Assembly: GCF_030440575.1 (NCBI RefSeq)
Contig: NZ_CP047189.1
Location: 1,736,001 to 1,800,000, forward strand
Length of the DNA stretch: 64,000 nt
Source of the DNA: Corynebacterium ciconiae DSM 44920
GTDB lineage: Bacteria; Actinomycetota; Actinomycetes; Mycobacteriales; Mycobacteriaceae
Direction of reading: 5' to 3'
Part shown: one piece after another, positions 26,478 through 44,253 of the stretch
How positions within the stretch are numbered: position 1 is the first letter of the stretch
Layout: the number at the start of each line of letters is the position of its first letter
Program-made: the position numbers and the translations under genes
The notes under the pieces: generated by a model
The model's input: only the letters and a program-made list of their open reading frames with translations
Databases searched by the model: none
What the model was told of the DNA's origin: nothing

Positions 26478-26512
26478 GAAAAGCCCGCCCTGCGCAGAAG
26501 CGCAGAGCGAGC
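26478..26512 (-). terminator. Rho-independent terminator of the aromatic (upper) operon
   Basis: On the minus strand GCTCGCTCTGCGC pairs along all 13 bases (three G-U) with GCGCAGGGCGGGC across a TTCT loop, then TTTTCG. It lies nine bases past the hydrolase stop. Confidence 0.88.
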
Positions 26513-26520
26513 AATCAGAG

Positions 26521-27375
26521 CTAGAGACGCTCAGAAAGCCATTGCTTAATTACGCGGTTGAACTCATCAGCGCGCTCCACCTGGGACCAGTGACCGCACT
26601 GGGAGAAGATATGCACGTCGGCATGAGGGACCACATTCAGCAAATCCCAGGTTCGCGACACCGGAATCACTTTGTCCTGGGTGCCATGAATTAGCAGGAC
26701 CGGAATATCGAGTTCCGCCAACTTGTCGAAATCGAGGGGTAGCTCATTGCGGTCTCGGTCACGAGCCGCAACAACTTCCTTGAGTCGGTCACTTGCCGTG
26801 TCGTTGAGAGCGGAGTTGTAGCGCAAATCCACGAGCTCCTCGGTGATAAGGGTCTTGTCCACCACGAAAAGCTCGAGCGTATCTCGGATACCCTCCCTGG
26901 TCAGAGTCGGATTCGAGTGCCCCTTCAATGCACCGGTGAGCTTAGCCCCTCCAGTACCCATGGAGATGATTCCAGCAAGGCGCTCTGGGTGATCGATCGC
27001 GAACTGGAAAGCAAGCCACCCACCCAGGGAATTACCGACGATCCAGGTCTTTTCGATACCGAGTGCATCTAGCACGCGAATCGCATGATCGACCCACTGG
27101 CGGATTCCATACTCGGTTCCCTCTGCCACCACTGTCTGGCCGTACCCGATGGAATCGATGGCAATGCAACGGCCAAACTCCGCGATCTGGGGCAAGTTGA
27201 GCCACCAGTTGGCCGCGGCGGTGACTCCGGTTCCCGATCCGTGCAGGAACAGGATGGGCGTTCCCTCACCCAGTTCGTGGTAGTGCGTGATCTCGCCCGG
27301 AGCAGTTTCAAGCCACTTGTCCTCCAGGCCAAAGAAAGGGTCAGTCTTGAAGTCGGGGATGTGTGTCTCAGTCAT
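26521..27375 (-). CDS. mhpC: Alpha/beta hydrolase, meta-cleavage product (C-C bond) hydrolase, MhpC-like
   Basis: 284 residues from ATG 27375. Alpha/beta-hydrolase features: oxyanion loop LFLHGSGTGVTAAANWW, nucleophile elbow VGNSLGGW (Ser116), Asp in LLIHGTQDKVIP and His in SQCGHWSQVERADEF. These match MhpC/BphD/DmpD enzymes that split the ring-fission product of a catechol. With an MhpB-type dioxygenase in the same island, the likely substrate is 2-hydroxy-6-oxonona-2,4-dienedioate or its unsaturated analogue. Last gene of the upper operon, before a strong terminator. A GTG/ATG start 19-24 bases upstream is possible. Confidence 0.85.
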   Translation of the reverse strand: MTETHIPDFKTDPFFGLEDKWLETAPGEITHYHELGEGTPILFLHGSGTGVTAAANWWLNLPQIAEFGRCIAIDSIGYGQTVVAEGTEYGIRQWVDHAIRVLDALGIEKTWIVGNSLGGWLAFQFAIDHPERLAGIISMGTGGAKLTGALKGHSNPTLTREGIRDTLELFVVDKTLITEELVDLRYNSALNDTASDRLKEVVAARDRDRNELPLDFDKLAELDIPVLLIHGTQDKVIPVSRTWDLLNVVPHADVHIFSQCGHWSQVERADEFNRVIKQWLSERL

Positions 27376-27451
27376 AGCGCCTACTGTATCCTCCATCACA
27401 TTTTCAGTTCAGTTACTTGTTCCATTGTGCGGGACGTGGCCCCGTTCCGGA

Positions 27452-27868
27452 TCACTCCCGCGGTCGCGGCACGGAATAGGTGGTAATGAATTTTCCGAGC
27501 AGTGTTCCACTGTCACTGGAGTGCACCTCTGTATCTGTCACGATGATTGACTTTCCTGCCCGCACGATTCGGGCAGTAGCAATCGCGTCGCCTGTCTTCG
27601 CGTTAGCCACCACGTTAACGGTGGAGGACACAGCCAGCGGAAATACTCCCTCATCCACGTTGTACATCACCAACCATGTGGCAGTGATGTCTGCCAGGCC
27701 AAACAGCGCCGGTGCGGCAAACATCCCAGCGGGCTGTGATACCTCTGCCCTCAGAGGCATTCCCACCTTCACGCACTCAGCCGAACCCTCGATTGGGTAA
27801 AGACCGAGAGTGATGGCGATGTCATTTACTCGCGAGTAGAACGCGTTCCACTTGTCTTCAAAAGTCAT
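27452..27868 (-). CDS. PaaI-type hotdog thioesterase
   Basis: 138 residues, one hotdog domain. Visible family features are AGMFAAPALFGLADITATWLVM (catalytic helix region; the usual HGG is changed) and VVANAKTGDAIATARIVRAGKSIIV. It would hydrolyse an acyl-CoA thioester. Its ATG overlaps the stop of the preceding small gene (ATGA), so it is translationally coupled to it and to the CoA ligase. In this context it could release CoA from stalled aromatic intermediates. Not part of the E. coli hca/mhp set. Confidence 0.75.
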   Translation of the reverse strand: MTFEDKWNAFYSRVNDIAITLGLYPIEGSAECVKVGMPLRAEVSQPAGMFAAPALFGLADITATWLVMYNVDEGVFPLAVSSTVNVVANAKTGDAIATARIVRAGKSIIVTDTEVHSSDSGTLLGKFITTYSVPRPRE

Positions 27869-28188
27869 GTCAGCTCCAATGAATCGATATCCGTTGAGTG
27901 TTTCTTCACCCGATCAGGCTCAGCAACCATAAGATTCAGTTCCGCCCCGTCTCGCGTTTCGACATCCACCACAAAGTGCATTCCCGCCGATTCGCAGGCG
28001 CGCACTCCTTCAAGGTCATCGACATCCACGCCAACAATTACCCGGCGACAGCGTGGATACTCCCTAAACACTCGCTCGATGCAAGCACTCATGCGTTCCG
28101 TGGTGCTCAGAGACATCTCGAGGTCGTCGGCACCATAGGGGTAGGTGTGCTTCAATGGAGAACGATCAATGGGGGTGAGGCTAGGCAT
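27865..28188 (-). CDS. Small protein resembling the C-terminal half of a GNAT acetyltransferase
   Basis: 107 residues from ATG 28188, which overlaps the ligase stop (ATGCCTAG). The segment VDDLEGVRACESAGMHFVVD resembles the last helix-strand unit of GNAT domains (...aGF..v). No acetyl-CoA pyrophosphate loop (Q/RxxGxG/A) is visible, so catalysis is doubtful. It may be a truncated acetyltransferase, a binding module or an accessory to the CoA ligase. Tight overlaps on both sides (ligase before, thioesterase after) argue that it is translated. Confidence 0.6.
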   Translation of the reverse strand: MPSLTPIDRSPLKHTYPYGADDLEMSLSTTERMSACIERVFREYPRCRRVIVGVDVDDLEGVRACESAGMHFVVDVETRDGAELNLMVAEPDRVKKHSTDIDSLELT

Positions 28189-29821
28189 GAGTATCCTTTC
28201 GAATCTCTGCTTCCTCATGAGCGCGTTCGATGGCGAGAACTTCGCGCACATGCTCCCGAATGGCAATCTTGTTCACCTTGCCTGCCGAATTACGATCAAT
28301 CGTGTCTACCAGCACCAGCTTCTTGGGCAGTTTGTACCGAGCAAGGTGGTGCTCGCAGTGCTCACGCAAGTGCTCAATGGTGAGAGTGGCCCCCTCGTCC
28401 AGCTGAACAACCGCCACCACGATTTCCCCCCACTCCGGATCGGGATGGCCGACTACCGTATTTCCTAGTACGCCTTCGGCACCAGCGACTACCCGTTCTA
28501 CCTCGGCTGGGTAGACATTTTCTCCGCCGGTGATGATGAGGTCTTTGAGCCGATCGACCACATAATAGAAACCATCCTCATCCCGGATACCAATGTCTCC
28601 GGAATGAAACCAGCCTGCCGTGTAGGCGGAATTAGTGACCTCGGGGTTGTTCCAGTACCCCGTGGCCACATTCGGACCACGCACCCACATTTCTCCCGAG
28701 ACACCAGGCTCTTTAACTTCTTCGCCGGTATCAGGGTTCATGAGCTTCACCTCGGTGTAGGGCATTGGAATGCCACAGGAACCAATCTTGGTAGCCGTCA
28801 TCTCGGGAGGAAGGTAGGTAGCGAAAGGCGACGTCTCCGTGAGCCCCCAGGCCTGTTGGATATTGATTCCTTTCTCCATGTAGCGATGAATCAAAACCGG
28901 CGGTACGGGAGCTCCCGCGCAAATGGTGGCGCGCATCGAGCGGAGATTTGAGGAGGCAAAGTTAGGGTGCTTATACATAGCCTCCAGTTGAGCAGGCACA
29001 AGAAATGCGGTGGCAACAGAGTATTTCTCGATCTCTTCCAGAACACCCCCCGGGTTGAAATGGCGGTGAATAAGCACAGTATTGCCACGAACGAGAGATC
29101 GGATAGAAAAGGAATTCAGCGCACCTACGTGGAACAGCGGAGCGGTAGCGAGAGTGACGTCCCCAGGACGCACATCCACCATCGTGTCAACATTGATCTG
29201 ATTCCACCACAAATTGCCAAAAGTCAGCTGAGCTCCCTTAGGCAGTCCGGTAGTTCCAGAGGTGAAAAGCAGGAGAGCCAGATCCTTCATGCCCATAGGC
29301 CGCACCTTGGGCGCTGGATTCGACTCGCCGGGATCAGGAAAAGTAGACGTCGAATGCCAATAGACAGGGATAGTTTTATCCGGAGGGCTGAGAGAGTCGT
29401 CGTCAACAGCCACAACGTGCTGTCTCTCGATTCCATAAACCGTCATGGCTTTGCCCACGTACTCGCCTTCAACTACCACGGTGTGCGGGGTTCCCTGCAT
29501 CAACAGCTTGGAAACCTCGGGGGCAGATAGGCGGAAGTTGAACGGCATAAAGGTAGCACCCAACCACCAACTTGCGAGCATCGTGTAAAAGAAGCTCACC
29601 GAGTTCACACCTATGTAGGCCACGCGATCGCCCTGGCGAACACCTGCCTCATCGAGGTGGAGTACCCACCGCTGCAGAGTGTTATGGAGCTCGCCGTAGG
29701 TGATAGTGCGGTTTTCGTAGACTAGCGCCACCGCTTCTGGCTTGTACTGGGCATGTCGCGCAATTTGCGTGACGGGGTTGATGTCTAAAGAGTCCGGATT
29801 GTGGACTACTCCATTGATCAT
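28181..29821 (-). CDS. AMP-forming acyl-CoA synthetase (ANL superfamily)
   Basis: 546 residues. ANL motifs: A3 P-loop FTSGTTGLPKG (187-197), A5 WGLTETSPF, A7 HSGDIGIRDEDGFYYVVDRLKD, and C-terminal catalytic Lys in DRNSAGKVNKIAIRE. It should activate a carboxylic acid to its CoA thioester through an acyl-adenylate. In a phenylpropanoid island the candidate substrates are phenylpropionate, cinnamate or a pathway product. Start chosen at ATG 29821, which overlaps the dehydrogenase stop (TGATG); GTG 29824 is possible. The gene is extra relative to hca/mhp operons. Confidence 0.87.
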   Translation of the reverse strand: MINGVVHNPDSLDINPVTQIARHAQYKPEAVALVYENRTITYGELHNTLQRWVLHLDEAGVRQGDRVAYIGVNSVSFFYTMLASWWLGATFMPFNFRLSAPEVSKLLMQGTPHTVVVEGEYVGKAMTVYGIERQHVVAVDDDSLSPPDKTIPVYWHSTSTFPDPGESNPAPKVRPMGMKDLALLLFTSGTTGLPKGAQLTFGNLWWNQINVDTMVDVRPGDVTLATAPLFHVGALNSFSIRSLVRGNTVLIHRHFNPGGVLEEIEKYSVATAFLVPAQLEAMYKHPNFASSNLRSMRATICAGAPVPPVLIHRYMEKGINIQQAWGLTETSPFATYLPPEMTATKIGSCGIPMPYTEVKLMNPDTGEEVKEPGVSGEMWVRGPNVATGYWNNPEVTNSAYTAGWFHSGDIGIRDEDGFYYVVDRLKDLIITGGENVYPAEVERVVAGAEGVLGNTVVGHPDPEWGEIVVAVVQLDEGATLTIEHLREHCEHHLARYKLPKKLVLVDTIDRNSAGKVNKIAIREHVREVLAIERAHEEAEIRKDTHA

Positions 29822-30651
29822 CACAAGCAATCGCCTCCTGCGGCTGTGTGGAAGCCGCGCGCGGCAATGCCTCCATCGATCTGGATGACTGAGCCAGTCA
29901 TGTTAGCTCCGTCAGCAGGATCCGCAAGCATCACGTAAGGCCCCGTGAAGCTACGTGGATCTGTCGAAATGTCATGCAAAGGAATGTAGGGATTTCCGCC
30001 TTCTGGGCGGCGATCCATGGTGTCTTTGAAACTACGGCTATCGAGACCAGCAGCCGCGGGACCTCTGAGATCAGTCCGCATGCCGCCAACAGCGACGCCA
30101 TTCACTCGAACTTTGGGGGCGAGCTCGTGCGCAAATTGAAGCATCAGCCCTCGATCTGCGAATTTTGCCGCGGTGTAGACGGGGCCACCGCCCGCGGGAT
30201 AGTACGACGCATTCGAGAGGGTCATGATGATAGAGCCTTCCGACTTCACCAGCTCTCTCCACGTCGCTTCAACAGTAAGGAGATAGCCTTTGACGTTGAT
30301 GCCGAAAACCTCATCGCACACAGATGCAAGCTCGTCACCGTTAAGCCGTGTGACCGAACGGTTGTAATCCCAGATACCCGCGTTGGGAATAACAGTGTCG
30401 ATCCCTCCAAACATCCGGCAGGTCTCATCGACTGCAGCGTGAAGCTCGTGAGGCGAGCGCACATCGGCACTACAGGCAAGTGCCCGGGATGTCCCAAGCT
30501 CTGTCGTCACTGCGTGCGCTCGTTCGAGCGATACGTCCACGACGGAGACATTGGCACCTTCTGCGTGAAATCTTCGTGCTAGGGCCGCCCCTAACCCCGA
30601 GCCTGCACCGGTGATGAACAACGTATGACCTTGAAAACGCTGCTGCGTCAT
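29821..30651 (-). CDS. SDR-family cis-dihydrodiol dehydrogenase, HcaB/BphB-like
   Basis: 276 residues. The NAD-binding Rossmann motif is TGAGSGLG (14-21), PNAGIWDY supplies the NAG segment, and the catalytic Ser and YTAAK follow. The sequence FGINVKGYLLTVEA and the C-terminal half (GPYVMLADPADGANMTGSVI) match cis-2,3-dihydrodiol dehydrogenases, which rearomatise the dioxygenase product to a catechol with NAD+. It lies between the dioxygenase beta subunit (36-base gap) and the CoA ligase. Confidence 0.88.
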   Translation of the reverse strand: MTQQRFQGHTLFITGAGSGLGAALARRFHAEGANVSVVDVSLERAHAVTTELGTSRALACSADVRSPHELHAAVDETCRMFGGIDTVIPNAGIWDYNRSVTRLNGDELASVCDEVFGINVKGYLLTVEATWRELVKSEGSIIMTLSNASYYPAGGGPVYTAAKFADRGLMLQFAHELAPKVRVNGVAVGGMRTDLRGPAAAGLDSRSFKDTMDRRPEGGNPYIPLHDISTDPRSFTGPYVMLADPADGANMTGSVIQIDGGIAARGFHTAAGGDCL

Positions 30652-30687
30652 AGCGATTCTCTTCCTGTCTTTGAGGGAGCCGACCAG

Positions 30688-31245
30688 CTAGAAGAAGGTA
30701 GATATGTTTTTCGACGTCAAGACATTGATGTCCAACAGAATGCGGCGATCAAAAATCTTGAAGCCTTCACCTGTGGTACGAAGCAGATCTGTGCGAGTTC
30801 CAGCGAAGGTGTCCTGTTCTGTTTCCAGTCGAGTGCGCCACACGAGGAAGTTACTTCGTGCTTCGATGACCGGCTCACCGGCAAGATCTGCATGCCGGAA
30901 AACAAGGTTGCTAATAAGATGCCTGGTTCGAGACGGTGGGTCTTCGGCCCACGCCATTCCCGAGTCAAACCGGCGGATACGCCACGCTAACGATTCCTTG
31001 GTTTCGTCGTAGAATGCCGCTTCGCCATAGGAGGCGACGGATAGTGCTTGTTGCCGACGAAGCCTATTGGACCTGGTGGGCGCCCAGTACAGGAGATCCT
31101 CATCGAATCGGTCCAGCCAGTCGGTGTAGCGGCCATCATCTAGAAGGTCCGCCTCGCTGTAGTAAAAACTCTGCAACTCGTAGGCGCGCTCCATACTCAC
31201 CAGTTCACCGACGACTGCGTCGTCCCTGCGTAGGTAATCAGTCAC
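30688..31245 (-). CDS. Aromatic-ring-hydroxylating dioxygenase beta subunit
   Basis: 185 residues of the NTF2-like small-subunit family. It shows AYELQSFYYSEADLLDDGRY, WLDRFDEDLLYWAPTRSNR, AWAEDPPSRTRHLISNLVF and the C-terminal RILLDINVLTSKNISTFF. The subunit is structural, forming the alpha3beta3 hexamer. The wording is close to HcaF/BphA2-type proteins. The gene follows the ferredoxin reductase rather than the alpha subunit, a shuffled order compared with E. coli hcaEFCBD. Confidence 0.88.
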   Translation of the reverse strand: MTDYLRRDDAVVGELVSMERAYELQSFYYSEADLLDDGRYTDWLDRFDEDLLYWAPTRSNRLRRQQALSVASYGEAAFYDETKESLAWRIRRFDSGMAWAEDPPSRTRHLISNLVFRHADLAGEPVIEARSNFLVWRTRLETEQDTFAGTRTDLLRTTGEGFKIFDRRILLDINVLTSKNISTFF

Positions 31246-31276
31246 TGCTCTCTCCTCCCGTTAGTCTTGGGGGCTT

Positions 31277-32494
31277 TCAGCGCGAAAGCTTCTTAAGGTT
31301 CTGGCTGGGGTCTGCAAGCTTGTCCGGATCAGGGCTAATACCGCGGTCAATCATCCGGCGAGCGGCGCGAACTGCCATTGAATCGTCGATCGCTGCGGCT
31401 CCCACCACTTGTCCTTGCGCGTTCAATCGGAAAGCCACCGCAGGATGACCATCTCGGTCCTCGCGGACAACCGTGTTTCCTGGGAGGCTCATATCACCCA
31501 CTCCCTCGACATGTACGCCATAACGATCAGACCAGAACCAGCCGGCACTGTGTTGAGGCAGATCCTTCCCCGTAATCGTGGCCGCCGCGGTCTGCGCGGT
31601 GTGCACTGCATTTTCCCAATGCTCATGACGCCGTTCGAGCGCACCGTCACTGCGTCGTGTGCGGGCACAATCACCGATCGCCCAGATCCCTGGCACGCTA
31701 GCTCTCTGTTCTTCATCGACGACAATGCCGTTGTCGAAATCCAGCTCTGCCGACCGTGCAAGGGCTTCTTCAGCAGTGATACCTACCGCAACGACAACCA
31801 CGTCTGCTGCCAATGATGCGTGTCCCTTGATGTTCACCGTGAAGCGATGGTCGCCCTCCTCGTGATATTCAATTGATTCCGTAAGACCATTGATGTAGGC
31901 AACCCCATTATCCTCATGCATAGTGTGAAGGCGGGTAGCGATGTCCTCACCCACTGCCGGCACCAGTGCAACCGGAGCCGGATCAATGAGTGTGACCTGA
32001 GCTCCCAACTCCAAGGCAGAACCCGCCAATTCAGCTCCGATAAGCCCAGCTCCAACGATGGCCAAATCAATCCCCGGGCCGAGCTTTTCTTTAAGCAGTT
32101 CTGCATCCTTCATGGTCCTCAACGAAAAAATCTCAGGATGGTTGAACCCGGGAAGCGGTAGCACACGCGGCACACCACCCGTAGCGATGACAAGGTTGTC
32201 GTAGCCCAGGGTGTTCGAGTCCTTAAGCGTGACTTTCTTGTTGGCGCTATCGATGGCGATAGCCTCCGCCTGGATCACCTCCACCCGGTTTTCCTCATAC
32301 CATTCGGTTGGGGCGAGCAGAAGGTCATCATGGCCCTTCGTGCCCTGCATGATCTCTTTCGACAAGGGCGGTCGATCATAGGGAAGTCCCTCTGGATCAA
32401 CGATGGTGATCTCACCTTCCCAATCATGTTTGCGTAGTGACTGGGCGAGAGTGAACCCTCCGATTCCGCCTCCGATAATGAGTGTGTGTGCCAC
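31277..32494 (-). CDS. Ferredoxin reductase component of the dioxygenase (FAD/NAD-dependent)
   Basis: 405 residues. Two dinucleotide folds are visible: the FAD motif LIIGGGIGGFTLAQSLR at the N-terminus and the NAD motif LAIVGAGLIGAELAGSALE near 145-165, then the FAD signature VPGIWAIGDCA. This is the BphA4/HcaD type that passes electrons from NADH to a Rieske ferredoxin. It follows the ferredoxin gene by 54 bases. Confidence 0.92.
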   Translation of the reverse strand: MAHTLIIGGGIGGFTLAQSLRKHDWEGEITIVDPEGLPYDRPPLSKEIMQGTKGHDDLLLAPTEWYEENRVEVIQAEAIAIDSANKKVTLKDSNTLGYDNLVIATGGVPRVLPLPGFNHPEIFSLRTMKDAELLKEKLGPGIDLAIVGAGLIGAELAGSALELGAQVTLIDPAPVALVPAVGEDIATRLHTMHEDNGVAYINGLTESIEYHEEGDHRFTVNIKGHASLAADVVVVAVGITAEEALARSAELDFDNGIVVDEEQRASVPGIWAIGDCARTRRSDGALERRHEHWENAVHTAQTAAATITGKDLPQHSAGWFWSDRYGVHVEGVGDMSLPGNTVVREDRDGHPAVAFRLNAQGQVVGAAAIDDSMAVRAARRMIDRGISPDPDKLADPSQNLKKLSR

Positions 32495-32548
32495 GTTTTC
32501 AGCTCCTTGATGTGTGGGGCAACGATTCTGTGGATCGGCTTATGATCT

Positions 32549-32893
32549 CTACTCAGCCGTGGCGGGGGTGCCGGGGTAGATCCAGATCTCTTCCCCGCGC
32601 AGCTCAAGCTTGTGGCTGGCTACGTCCTCCGTTGCGGGCATGCACTGCACTGCACCTGTCTTGAGACAAAACTTGGCTGTGTGAATCGGACACTCCACCT
32701 CACAGCCCTCGATCCAGCCGTCAGCAAGCGAGGCGTCCTCGTGAGAGCACGTGTCATTGAGCGCGTAGAATTCATCATCCTCGGTACGGAAAACAGCAAT
32801 GGGCTCCGAGAACCCGGTGACGTCGGTATCTACAACGATGGCCTCTTCCGGCTCGATATCGTCCTTAACTGCGACCTTGACTGCTTCAGACAT
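32549..32893 (-). CDS. Rieske [2Fe-2S] ferredoxin of the dioxygenase
   Basis: 114 residues. Cluster ligands Cys49, His51, Cys68 and His71 (CSHEDASLADG...CPIH) with the usual spacing for BphA3/HcaC ferredoxins. It shuttles electrons from the reductase to the oxygenase. A close paralogue lies at 42827-43249. Confidence 0.94.
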   Translation of the reverse strand: MSEAVKVAVKDDIEPEEAIVVDTDVTGFSEPIAVFRTEDDEFYALNDTCSHEDASLADGWIEGCEVECPIHTAKFCLKTGAVQCMPATEDVASHKLELRGEEIWIYPGTPATAE

Positions 32894-32943
32894 CGGTGAA
32901 CCTTTCCGCGTGGTGTAGTTGGTAGTTGTTGTGGAGATCGGGC

Positions 32944-34269
32944 TTAGTTTTCGTGCCAGGCCGGGGTGTTCATGAGCTCTTTCCAGCGCCGATAGAAACC
33001 CCGTCCGGCTGCGTCGGAGTAGAGCTCAGAGGTTGTGCCAGGGAAACCTGCGTTGTGCTTTTCAGTCCCCATACCCATCTGGTAATTCAGTGCGGTTCCC
33101 TGAATCATGAAGGCGTGAGCGTTGGCTTGAACCTCGGACCAGTTTTCTCCATCGTCTTGCTCGAAAATCCCGGATGGGCCAAAAGTACGAAGGTTATACA
33201 GCCGCTGGGCTTTCTTGACGTCTTCCGGCATGGATTTATCCAGAACTGTCCACGCCCAGACCTCAATCTTGTTAGGACCTTTCGGGTGCCAGACCCTGAT
33301 CGAACCATTAACCGGAAGATATGAGAAGTTGGGAAAGACATTTCCGTGTCCGTTGGTCATCGGACCTGTGACCTGCTCTGGAGACAATCGGTCTCGCAGA
33401 AACTCATAGTCGTAATACTCGTGCACCGGCTGGGCATCGAAGCGATTTTTCGGATGCACGGGGAACCCGGCCCCGTGGCCAGAGTCACTCGTGAATTGCT
33501 TGCCAGTTCGCTCAGCAATCGCCTTTTTGGGCCCCTTGCCGGATGGCGACATCACCATCAACGCTGATGCGTGGGACATGTTGACGTGGTACCAGTCTGT
33601 GGCGAACTGCTCCGCTGCGAGTTTCCAGTTGCCTTCGAGCACCCACTTGGTCACACCGCCAACAACACAGGTTCCCTCCGGATCACGATCGAGGAACGCG
33701 TCGAGGTACCAGGTGAGGTCACCGAGAGCATCCTCGAGTGGTTCCGCGTTTTCGTCCCAATTGGCAAAAATAAGTCCCTTGTAGGACTCCACCCTCGGCG
33801 CGGTGACCAGACCCCAGTCGGAGGGATTAAAGGAGGGGTCATAGTCGTCTTTACCAGGAAGATTAACGAGTTCTCCGTCGAGATCGTATGTCCATCCGTG
33901 ATACGTACACGTGAAGTTTTTTGTGCGGCCGTGGTCTGCACGACATACACGTGCCCCTCGATGCCGACAATTATTGAGCAGAACGCGAATCTCGCGCTTC
34001 TTATTCATCGACGCAATGACTGGATCTTCGCCCATGTAGGTCTGGAAGAAATCACCGGGTTTCTGGAACTGATCCTCATGGGCGATAAACAGCCATGAGC
34101 GTGCAAAAATGCGTCGCATCTCTTGGCGGTAGATCTCCTCGTCACTGAAGATTCGGCGATCTATCAGTCCATTGTCAGGATCCGCCATTCCGCCAATGTC
34201 GGTATTAGTGTCGAGGCCCTGAGGGCGTGTCAGCCCGGCGAGGGGCCTCGGATTCTGCGGAGTTGCCAT
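32944..34269 (-). CDS. Rieske ring-hydroxylating dioxygenase alpha subunit, HcaE-like
   Basis: 441 residues from ATG 34269, four bases after GGAGG. The Rieske centre is Cys101, His103, Cys121, His124 (CRHRGARVCRAD...CTYHGW). The mononuclear iron site is in QFATDWYHVNMSHAS (His228, His233) with the third ligand probably Asp in EQDDGENWSE. The segments WLFIAHEDQFQKPGDFF, ESYKGLIFANWD and VWHPKGPNKIEVWA closely resemble E. coli HcaE (3-phenylpropionate/cinnamate dioxygenase) as I recall it. It adds O2 to the 2,3-positions of the ring. First gene of the upper operon. The open frame continues upstream to 34371 but without an RBS. Confidence 0.9.
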   Translation of the reverse strand: MATPQNPRPLAGLTRPQGLDTNTDIGGMADPDNGLIDRRIFSDEEIYRQEMRRIFARSWLFIAHEDQFQKPGDFFQTYMGEDPVIASMNKKREIRVLLNNCRHRGARVCRADHGRTKNFTCTYHGWTYDLDGELVNLPGKDDYDPSFNPSDWGLVTAPRVESYKGLIFANWDENAEPLEDALGDLTWYLDAFLDRDPEGTCVVGGVTKWVLEGNWKLAAEQFATDWYHVNMSHASALMVMSPSGKGPKKAIAERTGKQFTSDSGHGAGFPVHPKNRFDAQPVHEYYDYEFLRDRLSPEQVTGPMTNGHGNVFPNFSYLPVNGSIRVWHPKGPNKIEVWAWTVLDKSMPEDVKKAQRLYNLRTFGPSGIFEQDDGENWSEVQANAHAFMIQGTALNYQMGMGTEKHNAGFPGTTSELYSDAAGRGFYRRWKELMNTPAWHEN

Positions 34270-34476
34270 GTATCCTCCGTCCCTACTTTCCTTGTCCTGT
34301 CGTGCCACAGAGCTACAGCCGTGTCTGGAGCGACTTTTACCGGGGGAATAGCACCCCCTCAAAGACCACACTCGAGTTCAAGCTGCTGCCTACTGTGCCG
34401 AATCAGCTCGACTCCTCTGTCGCGGCCCCTGCATCAACGCTAGGCGGGGTGGCCAACTACCGCGATCTGGTGCCCT

Positions 34477-34492
34477 TGTGAGCTGATTCATA
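34477..34492. promoter_or_regulatory. GlxR/CRP-like binding site candidate
   Basis: TGTGAGCTGATTCATA matches TGTGA-N6-TCACA with one mismatch in the right half-site. GlxR is the global cAMP-receptor-type regulator of corynebacteria and often controls aromatic catabolism. Confidence 0.4.
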
Positions 34493-34540
34493 TATTGTGT
34501 GCTCAATTATGTGACTGGAGTCAAAATTTTCTAAAGAGCC

Positions 34541-34559
34541 CGTTCCACCCTCCGGAACG
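34541..34559. promoter_or_regulatory. Inverted repeat, candidate IclR operator
   Basis: CGTTCC and GGAACG, exact 6-bp arms around a seven-base spacer, midway in the divergent control region. Confidence 0.4.
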
Positions 34560-34773
34560 CCGCCAGGCATGTATGGTCGCACCTGGGAACTATTGCTTTT
34601 CACACCACTTCACACAGCACCCCCTTAACGTGGGCATGTGAAGAACAAAATGGCACAAAAACTGAAACTGGAGATGAGGGTTGTGCGGAGCTTCCGGTTG
34701 CCCGCATCTCCCACACCATTCACACCACATCGTGCGTGCTCTACGCACCCGCAGCAGGAAGGTCGATCACCCA

Positions 34774-35571
34774 ATGACAGGAGAACAGCCCGCCAAGAAC
34801 ACACGCGGAGCAGTGGACAAAGCGATGAGCCTCCTGCGTTGCTTCAGCACGCATGACGCAATGGGAATCGGCCTGAGTGAACTTGCCCGACGCGCTGACC
34901 TATCTAAGACAACGACGCACCGCATTCTCGGAACTCTGGTTGATAATGGGGCACTCGAGCGCTCAGGCGACGTGTATCGGCTTGGGCCGTTGTTCTTTGA
35001 GCTCATGACCGAACGGGGCAGCAAACATTCCGAGCTTGTGAGCGAACAGCTCACTCCATATCTCGCCGCCCTTTTCGAGCACACCCGGCATACCGTGCAT
35101 TTGGCCTATCTCGACAGCACAGAGGTGGTGTATGTGAACAAGCTGTTTTCTGCTCGGCGGGTCGATGCCCCTTCCCGCATCGGAGGTCGTGCCCCGGCAC
35201 ACTGCACCGGTGTAGGAAAAGCAATGTTGGCTTTTGATGAAGGCGCAACTGAGACCGTTATAGCCTCAGGCCTGCGCGGATGGACTCCGTTCACAATCAC
35301 TGATCAAGCCCAGTTGCGGCGTGAACTTTCCACCATTCGCGATACCGGAATAGCTCACGATCGCCAGGAGATAACCCTGGGACTGAGCTGCGTAGCGGCG
35401 CCGATCTTCGGGATTCACAACGTGCCTCAAGCCGCGATGAGCGTCTCGGGACCTTCGGAGACCTTCAATCCAAACCGGGTGCTCCCACCCCTGAAAAAGA
35501 TCTGCTTATCAGCTTCCCGCGTAGTTCAGCAGTGGCAAAGGAAAAACCGCCCGGAGATTTTCGAAGATTAA
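34774..35571 (+). CDS. IclR-family regulator, MhpR/HppR type
   Basis: 265 residues from ATG 34774. N-terminal winged HTH: AVDKAMSLLRCFSTHDAMGI, LSELARRADLSKTTTHRILG, LVDNGALERSGDVYRLG. The C-terminal effector domain has HTVHLAYLDSTEVVYVNKL, APAHCTGVGKAMLAF and the family signature LGLSCVAAPIFG. IclR proteins such as MhpR activate phenylpropionate catabolic genes with the substrate as effector. It is divergent from the dioxygenase operon and convergent with the mhpBDFE operon, so it probably controls both. The longer frame from 34681 lacks an RBS. Confidence 0.9.
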   Translation: MTGEQPAKNTRGAVDKAMSLLRCFSTHDAMGIGLSELARRADLSKTTTHRILGTLVDNGALERSGDVYRLGPLFFELMTERGSKHSELVSEQLTPYLAALFEHTRHTVHLAYLDSTEVVYVNKLFSARRVDAPSRIGGRAPAHCTGVGKAMLAFDEGATETVIASGLRGWTPFTITDQAQLRRELSTIRDTGIAHDRQEITLGLSCVAAPIFGIHNVPQAAMSVSGPSETFNPNRVLPPLKKICLSASRVVQQWQRKNRPEIFED

Positions 35572-35645
35572 TTCCTAGAACTAGAACGCACAGGCAAGGG
35601 GCTAGAGGCCTGCACAGGCGCAGCGTGAAGTGGCTGACATAAAGA

Positions 35646-35705
35646 ATGCGGCTTCCACCTCGCAAACCTCGGCACGTGCACGTTGCGTTCTGAAGGAAGC
35701 CGCAT
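35646..35705. terminator. Inverted repeat between convergent IclR and mhpE genes
   Basis: Perfect 11-bp arms ATGCGGCTTCC (35646-35656) and GGAAGCCGCAT (35695-35705) with a 38-base loop that itself contains CACGTGCACGT. There is no T-tract. Probably a bidirectional terminator. Confidence 0.5.
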
Positions 35706-35732
35706 CTAACGGAGTTGCTCTTTGACCCCGGT

Positions 35733-36737
35733 TTAGCTGGCGCGTTTCAAATCCACAGCCACATCGATGATCATATCCTCCTGGCCGCCTACATAACCAC
35801 GACGACCAACCTCCGCCAAAATGTCCTGGGTAGGTACGCCGTAGCGCTGAGACGCCCGCTCAGCATGGAGCAGGAAGGAGTTGTACACGCCCATTTGGCC
35901 CTGCACGATTGAACCGCGATCCATGCTAGGAAGACGATCCACCAGTGGTTTCAATACGTCTTCGGCAGCGTGCAAGATCTCTTTGGTTTTCACGCCAGTC
36001 TCAATACCTAGCCGATCGAAGGCCACAGCAAGTACTTCTGTGGGGGAGTTTCCCGCTCCCGCTCCGAGGCCAGCGAGCGATCCATCAATCTGGCTGGCCC
36101 CTGCCCGAACCGCTAGAACAGAGTTAGTGACGCCAAAGGACATATTTTGGTGCCCATGGAAGCCCACCTGGGCATCAGAGCCTATCTCCTCTACAAGAGC
36201 ACGTACCCGCTCCTCTGCTTCTTCCATGATCATCGCGCCGGCTGAATCCACTACGAAAACGCACTGGCAACCCGCGTCCACCATGATTCGTGCTTGTTCA
36301 GCAAGCGCCCGAGGCTCCGAACGGTGAGACAACATGAGAAAGCCGCTCGTTTCCAACCCGAGTGCGCGTGCTTCTTGAAAGTGAGAGATCGATACATCAG
36401 CCTCAGTGCAGTGAGTTGCCACACGGATGACATCGACGCCACATCGCTGCGCCTCCTTGATGTCATCTACTCGTCCAACCCCAGGCAGCACGAGTGCGCC
36501 GATTTTGGCTTTCTTCGCCTCATCCCTTGCCGCCGCGATGAGGTCAAGCTCGTTGACTTTGGAGAAGCCATAATTGAAGGATGAACCGCCCAGGCCATCG
36601 CCGTGGGTTACTTCGATCATGTCCACGTGGGCGTCGTCGAGCGCCCGCACGACCGCGCGTACCTGCTCCTCTGTGTACTGGTGACGTACAGAGTGTGAAC
36701 CGTCACGCAGCGTGGTGTCATTAATCCGAATGCTCAT
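35733..36737 (-). CDS. mhpE: 4-hydroxy-2-oxovalerate aldolase
   Basis: 334 residues of the HMGL-like/DmpG family. Features: IRINDTTLRDGSHSVRHQYT (metal-binding Asp in TLRDG), EVTHGDGLGGSSFNYGFS, VDSAGAMIMEEAEERV, VGFHGHQNMSFGVTNSVLA (metal His). It splits 4-hydroxy-2-oxovalerate into pyruvate and acetaldehyde. The C-terminal DmpG-communication helix region is present (YGVPTQDILAEVGRRGYVGG), so channelling with the adjacent MhpF dehydrogenase is expected. Confidence 0.95.
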   Translation of the reverse strand: MSIRINDTTLRDGSHSVRHQYTEEQVRAVVRALDDAHVDMIEVTHGDGLGGSSFNYGFSKVNELDLIAAARDEAKKAKIGALVLPGVGRVDDIKEAQRCGVDVIRVATHCTEADVSISHFQEARALGLETSGFLMLSHRSEPRALAEQARIMVDAGCQCVFVVDSAGAMIMEEAEERVRALVEEIGSDAQVGFHGHQNMSFGVTNSVLAVRAGASQIDGSLAGLGAGAGNSPTEVLAVAFDRLGIETGVKTKEILHAAEDVLKPLVDRLPSMDRGSIVQGQMGVYNSFLLHAERASQRYGVPTQDILAEVGRRGYVGGQEDMIIDVAVDLKRAS

Positions 36738-36755
36738 TGGGTGTCGTGTCCTCTC

Positions 36756-37661
36756 CTAGATCAGGCTCGCCAGTCGTTCACCGGTAGCCACTGCAGCTGC
36801 TGTGATGATGTCCAAGTTGCCCGCGTACTCCGGCAAGTAGTCACCGGCTCCGGTTACTTCCAGCAGCACAGTCACTCGCCCCCATCCATTCCATTCCGGG
36901 CGCGCCTCATCGAACTGCGGGGTTGCAGTCACGTGGTAGCCCGGAACGTAGGAGCTGACCCGCTCAACCATGCTCTCAATGGAATCGAGAACCTTCTTCT
37001 GCAGTTCCCCCTCCACTGCGGCTTCGGCCGGTAGCGAGCAATAGACGGTGTTGCGCATGTTCATCGGAGGATCAACTGGGTTCAGCACGATGATGGCCTT
37101 TCCCCGCCGCGCTCCACCTACCTTCTCCAGTGCGGTGGCAGTGGTCTCCACAAACTCGTCAATATTGGCCCGGGTGCCTGGGCCAGCGGATCGTGATGAA
37201 ATCGACGCAACGATTTCTGCATATTCCACGTCGACCACACTCGATACTGCGGAAACGATGGGCACTGTCGCCTGACCACCGCACGTAATCATGTTGACAT
37301 TATCTAGGTCTTTGAGGTCATCTAGGTTCACGCTGGGGGAGAAATAGGGCCCCACAGCCGCCGGCGTGAGATCGATCGCCCGAATACCAGCGTCACGGTA
37401 GAGCGGCGCGTTTGCGAGGTGAGCGCTCGCGGAGGTGGCTTCGAAGACAATATCCGGTTTTGGTTCCTGCCGAACTAGCCATTCAACGCCTTCAGCCGAA
37501 GTGATAAGACCCTTGTCTTTAGCCTTCCTCAAACCTTCTGATTGCGGATCTACTCCAACCATGTACATCGGCTCGATTACCTTAGATTTCAGGAGCTTGT
37601 ACATGAGGTCAGTGCCGATATTGCCTGGGCCGACGATAGCCGCTGTGATCTTATTGCTCAT
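36756..37661 (-). CDS. mhpF: Acetaldehyde dehydrogenase (acylating)
   Basis: 301 residues. NAD motif [18 protein letters not shown] at the N-terminus; catalytic Cys in [20 protein letters not shown]; later [18 protein letters not shown]. It converts acetaldehyde to acetyl-CoA and normally forms a channelling complex with the aldolase, whose gene follows 18 bases later. Its ATG directly follows the mhpD stop (TAAATG). Confidence 0.95.
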
Positions 37662-38450
37662 TTACTTGTGTCCTTTACTAAAAGTGGCCGTCAACGTTCC
37701 GTATGTTCCGTAGTCCACATACACGTTTTCTCCGGCGCGCACTGCCGCGGCGCCGCAGAAGCTTCCTGTGAGGATGATTTCCCCTGCTTTCAGTGGAGTG
37801 CCCTGCTCTGCAAGCACCCCGGCTAGCCACACCAGCGGCGTCAAAGGGTGTCCCATCACAGCAGCACCCGTACCGACATGTGGTTCGCCATCCCCGACCG
37901 TCATCACAGCTTCGACCTCTGGTAGTTGGTCCACAGCAACATCGATAGGCTGAGAGCTGAGAATGACTGCGGCACACGAGGCGTTATCCGCCACCGTATC
38001 GACCAGACGGATGTCCCAATCCCGGACACGTGAGTCGATAATTTCGACTGCGAGATATACCTCGTCAACGGCCTCCACCACATCGTCGAAGGTGGTATCC
38101 GCTCCCAGATCACGGTTGATTATGAAGGCCAGCTCAGGCTCCACCTTGGGGGCGATGAACCGAGACACGTCGATGTGGTCCCCATCTCGGTACAGCTGTT
38201 GATCACTAAAGAATCCAAAATCCGGACTATCCACGCCAAGTTGTTGCTGCATAGCGACCGACGTAAGCCCAATTTTGCGACCGATGATGCTCCGTCCTGC
38301 GTCTTTGAGTGCTTTTTCTTGCCACTGCTGAATGGCATAGGCACCTTCTAGATCCAGACCAGCGATCGTGTTTCGCGGCGGCTCAATAGGCACTTTGGTG
38401 TCGTAGGCGCGAAGTAAATCAGCCGCTACCCTGTGCTTCTCATCATTCAT
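37662..38450 (-). CDS. mhpD: 2-keto-4-pentenoate hydratase
   Basis: 262 residues from ATG 38450 (MNDEKHRVAADLL), preceded by AGGATAGGCACGAAA. Family features: IQQWQEKALKDAGRSIIGRK, SPDFGFFSDQQLY, KVEPELAFIINRDL (metal-binding Glu pair), and VMGHPLTPLVWLAGVL. It hydrates 2-hydroxypenta-2,4-dienoate to 4-hydroxy-2-oxovalerate. The upstream-extended frame to 38576 overlaps mhpB and has no start signal. Confidence 0.93.
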   Translation of the reverse strand: MNDEKHRVAADLLRAYDTKVPIEPPRNTIAGLDLEGAYAIQQWQEKALKDAGRSIIGRKIGLTSVAMQQQLGVDSPDFGFFSDQQLYRDGDHIDVSRFIAPKVEPELAFIINRDLGADTTFDDVVEAVDEVYLAVEIIDSRVRDWDIRLVDTVADNASCAAVILSSQPIDVAVDQLPEVEAVMTVGDGEPHVGTGAAVMGHPLTPLVWLAGVLAEQGTPLKAGEIILTGSFCGAAAVRAGENVYVDYGTYGTLTATFSKGHK

Positions 38451-38458
38451 TTTCGTGC

Positions 38459-39394
38459 CTATCCTTTCGCCATGATCCCGAAGCCGGCAATGAACTCTTT
38501 GATCGGCCTGTAGTACTGGTAGCGAACTTCTGCATCGGGATGTGCTGCTGCAAGTGCCGAAAATGCCGCCACCCAAGTGCGCACTTCATGCGAGGAGTGT
38601 CCAGCCTGCTGGTCCATCTCATCCGCGGTGTAGCTGTCAAAGCCTGCTGGATCGTTGGAAGCACAGACTTCCATGAAAGCCGCATCCCACTCCGGGTTGA
38701 GGTCCTGAATCGGGGCTTCTCCTTTTGCAAAAGCGACGGCATTGTTGATGACATTTTGCTCGCGAGCCTGCCGAGCCTCTTCTGTCGGATGACGGCCGTT
38801 AAGCAGCAACGCCTTTTGCTCCTCTGTAGCCGTGGCCCACTGCGGTACCGGCGGGTCGTGAGACAGCCCGCCCGACGCCATGAACAGCACGCGCTCGTCA
38901 CGCTGAGCGAAGAAGCGACCCACTGCCTCCCCCATAGCTCGCACACGCTTCATGGAAACGAAGGGGCGTGCCACTCCATTAACGAAAATCGGGATAACGG
39001 GAGTGCCTTCGATGTCTCCGTATATGACTTCGAGCGGCTGCACTCCCCCGTGATCGATCTCCATGCGACGAGAGATAGCCACATCAATGTCCTGAGAAAT
39101 GATGAACTGAGCTAGTTCCTCTGCTAGTTCGGTAGGCACGTTGAGCTGCCCGACCTGGCCTCCCCAGTCTCCCACGCTGACGCACTCGTAGCCCACGCAG
39201 TAGGGCGGCATCAGATCATAGAAAAATCCGTTGTAATGATCGGGCCAGAAAAGCACGACCAGATCTGGGTTGTAGGACTTCACGAACTCTCTAGCATGAT
39301 CGAAAGCGCCGTGGAGCTCGTCGAGCACGTTCCTGGGCGGCTCGAGAACGTTGAGCAATGGACTGTGCGACATCGCAAGTAACTGAGCAGGCAT
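38459..39394 (-). CDS. mhpB: 2,3-dihydroxyphenylpropionate/2,3-dihydroxycinnamate 1,2-dioxygenase (LigB-type extradiol)
   Basis: 311 residues from ATG 39394. It is colinear with E. coli MhpB as I recall it: LLAMSHSPLLN (His ligand), LVVLFWPDHYNGFFYDLMPP (Asp-His), RMEIDHGGVQPLEVI (catalytic His), FMASGGLSHDPPVP, and the C-terminal STHE/SSHEVRTWVAAFSAL with YRPIKEFIAGFG. This class III enzyme cleaves a catechol bearing a propionate or acrylate side chain, which is the main reason for assigning the island to phenylpropanoid acids. First gene of the lower operon. Confidence 0.93.
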   Translation of the reverse strand: MPAQLLAMSHSPLLNVLEPPRNVLDELHGAFDHAREFVKSYNPDLVVLFWPDHYNGFFYDLMPPYCVGYECVSVGDWGGQVGQLNVPTELAEELAQFIISQDIDVAISRRMEIDHGGVQPLEVIYGDIEGTPVIPIFVNGVARPFVSMKRVRAMGEAVGRFFAQRDERVLFMASGGLSHDPPVPQWATATEEQKALLLNGRHPTEEARQAREQNVINNAVAFAKGEAPIQDLNPEWDAAFMEVCASNDPAGFDSYTADEMDQQAGHSSHEVRTWVAAFSALAAAHPDAEVRYQYYRPIKEFIAGFGIMAKG

Positions 39395-39419
39395 GCTTCT
39401 TGCACTCCCCTTTCCTATT

Positions 39420-39433
39420 AACGTCCTTACGTT
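39420..39433 (-). promoter_or_regulatory. Inverted repeat upstream of mhpB
   Basis: AACGTCCTTACGTT (exact arms AACGT/ACGTT, four-base spacer) 26 bases upstream of the mhpB start. A second, imperfect repeat (TGACCACAATATGGTTCA) lies a few bases beyond. Candidate regulator sites; not similar to the repeat at 34541. Confidence 0.35.
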
Positions 39434-39975: not shown

Positions 39976-42822
39976 ATGAGCACAAATTCCACATCGCCGC
40001 TGTTGGCTGATCTTCAGCACGGCTTCATTGATAAGCACCATCCTGCGCAGGGCGACTGCACCCCTCACCTGATCGATAACCGAGATCCAAACACGATGCT
40101 CGCCGCGATCACGCGCGAGATGGAGCGCTGTAACTCTTTTACTTTCTCAGTCGCGTTCATCACCCCGGATGCGCTCGCCCTTCTCAAGCCCTATTTGTTG
40201 CGCTTTGAGGGACGAGCAATAATCATTACGTCCACATACCTGGACTTCAATAACCCTGATATGTTTGAGGAGCTATTGCAGCTACCAAACATCGAAGTAC
40301 GCGTAGTAGATGACCATACCCAGGGGTTCCACGCGAAAGGCTATATCTTCTCTACCGACTTCGGTGTCACCGCCATTGTGGGTAGCGCCAACATGACCCG
40401 CCATGCCCTGATGAAGAATCAGGAGTGGAACGTCAAGTTCAGCGCAATGAAGCACGGCGACATCACCTACCAGATCCAGGACGCCGCAAACTACCAGTAT
40501 TCGATTTCTGTACCTCTCACGGCGGAATGGATTAAGAAATATCGTGCGCACCGCCGGCCTCCCTCTTATCCACGGCATGATCCTCAGCTGCCGTCCCATG
40601 AGCGCATTACTCCGAACGCGATGCAGCTTCACGCCCTCGAAGAACTCTCTAAGTTGCATAGCACGGGCGCCAAGAAGGCGCTCATAATCTCTGCCACAGG
40701 TACTGGCAAAACGATACTGGCTGCGCTGGCCGTACGTGCAGCGCAGCCACGCCGCTTGCTCTTCTTGGCGCACCGAGAACAAATCGTTCGTAAAGCACAG
40801 CAGGAATTTCGCCGGGTTATAGAGGCCGATAATAAGGATTTCTCCGTGTTTCTCGGCGCGAATCGCGATGCTTCGGCCCGTTTCGTCTTCTCTACTGTTC
40901 AGACTATGTCTCAGCCGTCGAGCCTCGGTAGTCTCGATCCTGATCACTTCGATTACATCATTATCGACGAGGCTCATCGCTCTGCAGCTTCGTCTTATGA
41001 AAAAATCACAAAGCATTTCACGCCGGATTTCCTCCTTGGCCTCACCGCCACACCGGAACGCACAGACGAGAAAAGCGTATATGAGTTTTTCGACTACAAC
41101 GTGGCATTCGAGATCAGGCTCAGCGACGCCCTCGAGAACAACATGCTGACTCCTTTCGACTACTACGGTGTCGCGGACTATGTCACCGAAAGCGGCGAGA
41201 CAGTGGATGATTCCACCGAGCTGAAGTACCTCGTTGCCGAGGAACGCGTCGAGCATTTGCTCGAAAAGCTGCGGATCTACGGCCGGGTCCGTAATGTCTG
41301 CGGGCTCATCTTCTGCAGCCGGGCTGAGGAAGCACGGGAGCTGTCCCAAAGGCTGAATGAAGCAGAATTGTTTGGACGACGGCTTCGGACCGTAGCGCTC
41401 ACCTCGGACGATCACCAGAAAGAACGCGAGCGCGCGATTGAACGACTAGAGTCTGGCGAGCTCGACTACATCATCACAGTGGATCTGTTCAACGAGGGCA
41501 TCGATATCCCTAAGGTCAACCAGATCGTCATGCTCCGTCCAACCCAGTCCGTCATCGTCTTCACCCAGCAACTCGGCCGCGGACTACGTAAATACCCTGA
41601 AAAGGACAACCTGCGCGTCATCGACTTCATCGGTAACTACAAAAACAACTTCCTGGTTCCGATGGCTCTACACGGCACAACGCGCCGACGGGACGTTCTC
41701 CGGGATGGTACGCGTGGCGCCAAAGCAGTATCTGGGCTAAGCCATATCTCCTTTGACAAGGTTGCCCAGCAGCGAATTCTTGCGGCCATCAACTCTGCGA
41801 GCATGGACCATCTCCGCATACTCAAAGAAGACATCGCCGAACTTCACAGCCGCCTCAACGCGGTGCCCACGCTCTATGACTTCGCTCGATTCGATCGAGC
41901 GGAGCCAGAAGTTCTTGCGTTGAAGATGAAGAACTATTGGTCGCTGCTCAATTCCACCAAGTTTTGCGATGTCGCGCCCACCGAGGTCCAGGCGGGCATG
42001 CTGAACCTGCTCTCCCTGCGAATTCTCAACGGCAAACGACCGCATGAGTCCCTCCTACTTCGGCGACTTATCGACGGTCCTGCAACAAACGAAGAGATAG
42101 CCACGCTGTTTGTCGACTACGGCACGACGTCGCACCAAGCCGTCATCGATAGCGCTGTGCGAGTGCTCACGGGCGAATTTGATAGTTGGAAAAAGGATCC
42201 ACAATTTCCGATAATCGCCCGTGACGCCCACACTCTACGGCTCTCCCAGAACTTCGAAGCCAATTACCGTTCGTCCGCGCTGTTTAAGAAGCATGTGGAC
42301 GACATCATCACCACAAGCCTCTTCCTCAACAGGGAAAAACACTCTATCGAGGGAAAGATGATCGTGGGCAAGTTGTACAACCGCGAAGACTTTTGCCGTC
42401 TCTTTAACTGGAAGCGTAACGAACGCGGCGTAATCAATGGCTACAAGATCGATAAGGACACCAACACCTGCCCGATCTACATCACCCACCACAAGGGTGA
42501 TGGATTCTCTGAGAGCACGCGTTATGAGGACTACCTCGACTCGGCTGAGTCAATGACCTGGTACACCCGCGGTAACCGCACCTTGAAGAGTAAGGAACTC
42601 ATTCCGATCATCAACAACTCTGTCGAGCTTCACATGTTTGCGAAACGTGATGACCGGGAGGGCACCGATTTCTTCTACCTTGGTCCGGTGACATCGCGGG
42701 ACGCCGTTAATGAACGAATGCCCGTCGAAGACCGAAGCATCGATATCGTGCGCATGAAGCTCGATTTCGAAGTTCCTGTCGATCCTGCAGACCTAAGCTA
42801 CCTGCGCGGCGCCGAGACCTAG
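39976..42822 (+). CDS. PLD-nuclease-like / SF2 helicase / DUF3427 protein
   Basis: 948 residues. An N-terminal phospholipase-D-like domain has one HKD motif (His119, Lys121, then GSANMT with Asn139). The SF2 helicase core follows: Walker A SATGTGKT (239-246), DEAH box IIDEAHRS (331-334), FSTVQTM, LGLTATPERTDE, and motif VI QQLGRGLRKYPEKD. The C-terminal part (about 640-940) matches DUF3427, with GKLYNREDFCRLFNWKRNER. A repair or defence role is plausible; no function is established for the pair. The coding style is less G+C-rich than the core genes. Confidence 0.85.
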   Translation: MSTNSTSPLLADLQHGFIDKHHPAQGDCTPHLIDNRDPNTMLAAITREMERCNSFTFSVAFITPDALALLKPYLLRFEGRAIIITSTYLDFNNPDMFEELLQLPNIEVRVVDDHTQGFHAKGYIFSTDFGVTAIVGSANMTRHALMKNQEWNVKFSAMKHGDITYQIQDAANYQYSISVPLTAEWIKKYRAHRRPPSYPRHDPQLPSHERITPNAMQLHALEELSKLHSTGAKKALIISATGTGKTILAALAVRAAQPRRLLFLAHREQIVRKAQQEFRRVIEADNKDFSVFLGANRDASARFVFSTVQTMSQPSSLGSLDPDHFDYIIIDEAHRSAASSYEKITKHFTPDFLLGLTATPERTDEKSVYEFFDYNVAFEIRLSDALENNMLTPFDYYGVADYVTESGETVDDSTELKYLVAEERVEHLLEKLRIYGRVRNVCGLIFCSRAEEARELSQRLNEAELFGRRLRTVALTSDDHQKERERAIERLESGELDYIITVDLFNEGIDIPKVNQIVMLRPTQSVIVFTQQLGRGLRKYPEKDNLRVIDFIGNYKNNFLVPMALHGTTRRRDVLRDGTRGAKAVSGLSHISFDKVAQQRILAAINSASMDHLRILKEDIAELHSRLNAVPTLYDFARFDRAEPEVLALKMKNYWSLLNSTKFCDVAPTEVQAGMLNLLSLRILNGKRPHESLLLRRLIDGPATNEEIATLFVDYGTTSHQAVIDSAVRVLTGEFDSWKKDPQFPIIARDAHTLRLSQNFEANYRSSALFKKHVDDIITTSLFLNREKHSIEGKMIVGKLYNREDFCRLFNWKRNERGVINGYKIDKDTNTCPIYITHHKGDGFSESTRYEDYLDSAESMTWYTRGNRTLKSKELIPIINNSVELHMFAKRDDREGTDFFYLGPVTSRDAVNERMPVEDRSIDIVRMKLDFEVPVDPADLSYLRGAET

Positions 42823-43249: not shown

Positions 43250-43405
43250 AGTGGACCCTCCTCTACTGGGGATCGAAGGTGTGCTCTGTGCATCGTTGTT
43301 GCCTGTCCCCAACTCTAAACATTGGTGGTTCTCGGCTCGTGTTGCCCCACCCTTCGCTGCCACCCGCACTGCACGGGCGCCTGTAGCCAAGTAGCCTCGG
43401 TGCAC

Positions 43406-44239: not shown

Positions 44240-44253
44240 ACAGCGGGTTGTGC

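Follow-up and report, generated by a model that had tools for sequence, protein, structure and literature searches.

A Corynebacterium ciconiae gene island, probably for direct ring attack on aryl-propanoates, with a conserved GNAT-like protein as candidate partner

We have analyzed a stretch of 64,000 nucleotides (the window) of Corynebacterium ciconiae DSM 44920 (contig NZ_CP047189.1, positions 1,736,001 to 1,800,000; the genome has 2.58 Mb in a single contig), specifically the gene island at positions 26478-39433 of the window. There, genes of a ring dioxygenase and of a meta-cleavage pathway lie together with a coenzyme A (CoA) ligase, a thioesterase and a small GNAT-like protein that we call here the pseudo-GNAT. 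A first-pass annotation had described this gene island and the observation is confirmed: every gene that it named is an intact open reading frame (ORF), and the dioxygenase, dehydrogenase, MhpB, MhpD, MhpE, MhpF, ligase and thioesterase have the support of their families. All the genes except that of the regulator lie on the minus strand. In the direction of reading, the oxygenase part starts with the alpha subunit (32944..34269, 441 aa), with an ATG behind a GGAGG-type ribosome site inside a listed ORF that extends to 34371. It is followed by a Rieske ferredoxin (32549..32893) and the ferredoxin--NAD(+) reductase of the dioxygenase (31277..32494), both assigned by family match, the beta subunit (30688..31245), an HcaB-type SDR as cis-dihydrodiol dehydrogenase (29821..30651), an AMP-forming acyl/aryl-CoA ligase (28181..29830), the pseudo-GNAT (27865..28188), a PaaI-like hotdog thioesterase (27452..27868, a family match) and an alpha/beta hydrolase for the meta-cleavage product, at the position of MhpC (26521..27399). 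The regulator of the IclR family is divergent from alpha (34681..35571, plus strand; the true start may be at about 34774). Beyond it are found an MhpE-type 4-hydroxy-2-oxovalerate aldolase (35733..36737), an MhpF-type acylating acetaldehyde dehydrogenase (36756..37661), an MhpD-type 2-hydroxypentadienoate hydratase (37662..38450, listed ORF to 38576) and an MhpB-type class III extradiol dioxygenase (38459..39394, listed ORF to 39508).

MhpB reached 448 bits, over the cut-off of 291 for PRK13370.1-4 and under those of the other three PRK13370 models (3-carboxyethylcatechol 2,3-dioxygenase), and 303 bits against the solved structure 8k04. MhpE and MhpF were well above the cut-offs of TIGR03217 (476 bits, cut-off 286) and TIGR03215 (421 bits, cut-off 282), while MhpD had PRK11342 as its best model with 224 bits for a cut-off of 350. 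The regulator had been called MhpR-type. It belongs to the IclR family, but the PRK09834 models, presumably those of MhpR, did not exceed 26.2 bits, with cut-offs of 269-299, so the name holds at the family level only. The hydroxylase MhpA had no match in the C. ciconiae genome at E<=1e-100; at this same threshold an MhpA-type hydroxylase was found in 12 of 242 Corynebacterium genomes. In the relatives L045, L046, L047 (5989-7767) and L013 such a gene is located beside or near the oxygenase units.

To delimit the operon we mapped its genes in 22 Corynebacterium loci (the window included) and 80 actinobacterial loci. The first set comes from the sample of 242 genomes of the genus, 22 of which had a ligase match at E<=1e-120; the same 22 have a close alpha (66-91% identity, leaving the window aside). 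The score thresholds are our own choice and some of the fetched stretches end early. Alpha, beta, ferredoxin, reductase, dehydrogenase and ligase were present in all 22 loci, the pseudo-GNAT in 21, MhpD, MhpE and MhpF in 19, the IclR gene in 16 and MhpB in 15. The second set are the best 80 of 374 stretches with a relative in a scan of named genomes with an alpha alignment, all 80 of them actinobacterial. Neighbors were counted there at more than 40 bits, and the ligase at 40% identity or more. An IclR-like gene was near in 66 loci and the ligase in 71 (73 if any match above 40 bits is accepted), so the annotation of the ligase as an operon member stands. When 396 genomes spread over the phylum were sampled, alpha at E<=1e-100 appeared only in C. 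ciconiae itself, indicating that the operon is scattered and not general. Two Corynebacterium loci (L051 and L052, from genomes G075 and G163) contain a diverged version, with an alpha of 66% identity, no thioesterase match and a third type of hydrolase inserted between beta and hcaB, which by match count 59 of the 80 named loci also have.

The gene content supports well a direct attack on the ring followed by MhpB-type meta cleavage, as had been proposed. The nature of the substrate would have to be read from family models, and the best pointers to a phenylpropanoid are the scores of MhpB, beta and HcaB. The beta subunit belongs to the HcaF family (PRK10069 subfamily, 171.9 bits, cut-off 145), falling below the stricter HcaF equivalog (142.3 bits, cut-off 230), and the best-scoring models of the dehydrogenase are those of HcaB (279 bits, cut-off 330). 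Several results weigh against a phenylpropanoid substrate. The HcaE equivalog of NCBIfam was the best of six models for alpha, with only 432 bits for a cut-off of 830. In a tree of 53 alpha subunits, where the program warned that long branches meet, alpha grouped within a clade of 36 actinobacterial rows (support 100/100), with HcaE of E. coli and Vibrio and the BphA group outside; the closest neighbors of the clade, L147 and L149, are oxygenases of Rhodococcus plasmids, both on long branches. Since alpha belongs neither with HcaE nor with BphA, the substrate cannot be read from it. The hydrolase, among solved structures, is closer to 2-hydroxy-6-oxo-7-methylocta-2,4-dienoate hydrolase of the cumene pathway (199 bits), which we take to be CumD, than to E. 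coli MhpC (118 bits). Besides, 59 of the 80 actinobacterial loci had MhpB in their flanks. The description as hca-type thus applies to the reaction class and not to the descent, and the interpretation that came with it is partly supported. The clade of alpha is separate, though it is no group of known other substrate.

It would still be conceivable that the dioxygenase acts on an unrelated compound (an alkylbenzene or a biphenyl-like molecule) and that the hydrolase frees a fatty acid for the ligase to activate. The kinship of the hydrolase would fit, as would the scores of alpha in the PDB, nearly the same for biphenyl dioxygenase (406 bits) and HcaE (400 bits), and its ranking with an alignment profile, in which biphenyl and benzene dioxygenases come above HcaE. 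However, it is models of the phenylpropionate pathway that give MhpB, beta and the dehydrogenase their best scores, and the ring-cleavage gene in both annotated bph clusters that we compared is bphC. We consider this alternative distinctly improbable.

Our analysis indicates that the island probably represents, in Corynebacterium, an actinobacterial type of operon whose products attack the ring of an aryl-propanoate (3-phenylpropionate/cinnamate type) directly, with a gate and a pseudo-GNAT partner. Going by family membership and established pathway knowledge, alpha and beta with their own ferredoxin and reductase would produce a cis-dihydrodiol, rearomatised by the HcaB-type dehydrogenase to the 2,3-dihydroxy acid. 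MhpB would open the ring of this acid, the hydrolase would release 2-hydroxypenta-2,4-dienoate plus succinate or fumarate, and MhpD, MhpE and MhpF would lead to pyruvate and acetyl-CoA. The ligase and the thioesterase might be a side entry or gate. The ligase (closest solved relatives a fatty-acyl-CoA synthase and a feruloyl-CoA synthetase, 372 bits each) could trap or activate the acid or longer phenylalkanoates, and the thioesterase could hand the free acid back to the ring route. Against such a gate as a general feature counts that the thioesterase, annotated as an operon member, is one in 19 of the 22 Corynebacterium loci but in only 19 of the 80 actinobacterial ones.

The ligase could have a more central role. 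In the CoA-first route proposed for ibuprofen, the ipf pathway, a CoA ligase is paired with a Rieske dioxygenase acting on the CoA ester, according to the parts of PMC11347016 that describe it. Applied here, the ligase would make an aryl-alkanoyl-CoA, the dioxygenase would attack the ring of the thioester and the thioesterase would free the acid before MhpB. The ligase does come after hcaB in most of the mapped loci. In addition, R283 and K/R281 (KF715 BphA numbering), which could hold a carboxylate as well as CoA phosphates, are found in 36 of 36 rows of the alpha clade. The same is true of W231 and V234, and W231, V234 and R283 were not seen in three HcaE and four BphA rows (one HcaE row has K at 281). 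Residues 231, 234, 281 and 283 are thus possible substrate contacts, although the alignment is gapped around 281-283 and the residue table is for this reason only suggestive. On the other side, six of the 80 loci combine the oxygenase and the pseudo-GNAT while no ligase that reaches 40% identity lies nearby, MhpB being near in all six, and no thiolase such as IpfD/E is present among the 14 operon genes. A CoA-first order is in our opinion unlikely.

A feeder role has somewhat better prospects and is possible, if doubtful. In this case the ligase and a chromosomal beta-oxidation would shorten odd-chain phenylalkanoates to 3-phenylpropionyl-CoA, which the thioesterase would release into the ring route. 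The thioesterase and the ligase are in one stretch in the 19 Corynebacterium loci mentioned above, and the genome has a possible beta-oxidation set at about 264-274 kb (L139:8671-18057). This region contains a thiolase, two enoyl-CoA hydratase-like genes, a ligase, an aldehyde dehydrogenase, an acyl-CoA dehydrogenase (the one match in the genome) and an SDR, the thiolase and the SDR being assigned by eye. However, it is unlinked to the operon and could serve any acid, and 61 of the 80 actinobacterial loci had no thioesterase match.

The new element here is the pseudo-GNAT. What had been annotated as a GNAT-like fragment turned out to be a separate conserved gene of 107 aa whose ATG overlaps the end of the ligase. 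With its nearest relative found (L053) it shares 79% identity at a dN/dS of 0.078, with dS near saturation. The idea of a GNAT remnant is ruled out by this conservation and selection. A profile of 47 relatives (E<=1e-6) detected it in 21 of the 242 genomes of the genus, all of them operon carriers; in the 22nd operon genome (G191), which gave no match, the contig stops just beyond the ligase. With a profile of 79 relatives it was found in 72 of the 80 actinobacterial loci. Six loci (L076, L080, L088, L093, L102 and L125) are those that keep it with no ligase nearby. Five loci had the ligase and no pseudo-GNAT, and in L059, L065 and L126 the sequence stops at the ligase. The linkage is weakened by L124, which has the ligase and lacks the pseudo-GNAT, and by L105, where none was found, the ligase is on the opposite strand and the contig stops about 2.4 kb past hcaB. 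It is weakened too by the composition of both profiles, which contain members from the very loci counted, so that the counts are those of a fitted model. The sample of 396 genomes, with alpha in C. ciconiae only, could hardly test it. Even so, within the genus the pseudo-GNAT accompanies the operon completely as far as the contigs reach, and in actinobacteria at large nearly completely.

Relatives in the databases (best 120 of 193 matches, 8000 candidates scored) are mainly named "hypothetical protein" or "GNAT family N-acetyltransferase", with single other names such as "Acetyltransferase". The window protein had no Pfam model at cut-off, and across the family the best one was PF13523 (34 of 47 members at E<=0.1). 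The predicted structure of a relative, L068, has a GNAT fold with almost no acyl-CoA loop. As controls we used the 16 other GNAT matches of the 396-genome sample, full-length proteins in open frames of 207-867 aa that score at most 58.4 bits with the profile, versus 129.6 for the pseudo-GNAT of C. ciconiae. The strict pattern of the acyl-CoA pyrophosphate loop, counted only where YP occurs, appeared in one of 79 pseudo-GNATs versus 9 of 16 controls. DxGxH, a motif with a catalytic role in GNAT acyltransferases, was in one of 79 versus 16 of 16. The small protein is apparently a catalytically dead GNAT, judging the fold by the predicted structure of the relative and the loss of function by that of the motifs. 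On the opposite side, a looser loop pattern was found in 16 of the 79 pseudo-GNATs, at scattered positions (15 of 16 controls), and the loss of motifs does not prove the loss of activity. An active lysine acyltransferase controlling the ligase would agree with the predicted fold and with the place of the gene between ligase and thioesterase in Corynebacterium. Still, the missing loop and DxGxH, and the six loci that keep the protein with no ligase nearby, make it very improbable. We prefer to see in it a partner of the oxygenase system with no enzymatic role, or an adaptor of this system that responds to acyl-CoA, as the co-occurrence with the operon suggests. Going further, the dioxygenases of this clade might depend on a dedicated dead acyltransferase that senses the acyl-CoA made by the ligase, or binds the oxygenase, to switch ring attack on or off. 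We put this forward as a speculation that is rather unlikely to hold; if true, Rieske dioxygenases would be controlled or assembled in a way that is new for them.

The most similar known system is hca/mhp of E. coli, with a four-component dioxygenase, a dihydrodiol dehydrogenase, the chemistry of MhpB, MhpD, MhpE and MhpF and a regulator of the IclR family. The window differs in the clade of alpha, in the additional ligase, thioesterase and pseudo-GNAT and in the MhpA missing from its genome search. The gene order also differs, alpha-ferredoxin-reductase-beta-hcaB versus alpha-beta-ferredoxin-hcaB-reductase in an annotated Vibrio hca cluster. Compared with ipf, the window has an MhpB-type enzyme and no thiolase, where the pathway as outlined in PMC11347016 has the thiolase IpfDE and the catechol 2,3-dioxygenase IpfL. 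The pseudo-GNAT shares family and predicted fold (that of the relative) with the acyltransferases EryM and MbtK, but is small (about 100-180 aa) and has no CoA phosphate loop or DxGxH. BphX is likewise a small unassigned gene in ring-dioxygenase operons, but a relation was not detected (hhalign probability 0.2 against one BphX). Genomic island GI-12 of a penguin Corynebacterium (lineage 2) carries 3-phenylpropionate/cinnamate dioxygenase subunits, reductase, beta, dihydrodiol dehydrogenase and a CoA ligase named FadD13; section 7 of PMC8269222, the description used for this comparison, names no pathway, meta-cleavage genes or GNAT. For Kocuria, PMC12343579 reports 59 genomes with hcaE, mhpB being annotated in none. 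No published study of the operon was found in the literature searched, most subscription journals being outside its scope.

Corynebacterium is best known for the CoA-dependent breakdown of the side chain of phenylpropanoids. With a ring-attack operon, found here in 22 of 242 sampled species, the genus would have a second strategy at its disposal, and a partner of a much-used class of biocatalysts may have escaped study.

A second alpha of 38-42% identity was found in 14 of the 22 operon genomes (E<=1e-60). In the other 220 genomes of the genus, three had a weaker match (32-33%) and none a closer one. Behind it, in those copies that were mapped, come genes for a beta, a VOC protein of two modules, an ABM-like protein and a symporter of the MHS family. 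In C. ciconiae this unit is at about 527-533 kb (L012:9435-14814). The operon ferredoxin and reductase had no match in the 20-kb L012 stretch, so the second unit may share those of the window operon. The remark of the first-pass annotation that no transporter is included is right for the operon but not for the genome, given this symporter; one is inside the fetched stretch in 12 of the 22 Corynebacterium loci.

An operator for the regulator was also looked for, with the palindrome motif of the IclR group taken from the motif given in PMC8222616. GTTCG-N5-CGAAC with two mismatches gave 19 matches versus 33.6 expected, and the repeats of the promoter region showed no clear operator. The word TTCACAC occurs three times at 34599-34731, in the gap that separates alpha from the IclR gene, where shuffling predicts about 0.07 occurrences, but it is found in 6 of the 22 loci and not in the nearest relative, L034. 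The IclR operator was dropped on these grounds, and the TTCACAC words are a possible operator at most.

The G+C content is 56.0% in 26478-39433 versus 62.9% in 1-26477 and 60.2% after 43000. The low values extend over MutT and helicase genes to about 43 kb (55.3%), and by this lower G+C the operon stretch looks acquired along with them. A plasmid origin was discarded, with no near match of 26478-39433 among 72,556 plasmid records. The helicase of this low-G+C stretch (39976-42822, plus strand, 948 aa) matched RadD, EcoAI-type and phospholipase-D anti-phage models, in each case below the cut-off. A second Rieske ferredoxin, of the HcaC type (PRK09965, 116.3 bits, cut-off 113), can be read at 42827-43180 (minus strand), about 3.4 kb beyond the operon, where it takes up the C-terminal part of the listed ORF 42827-44332.

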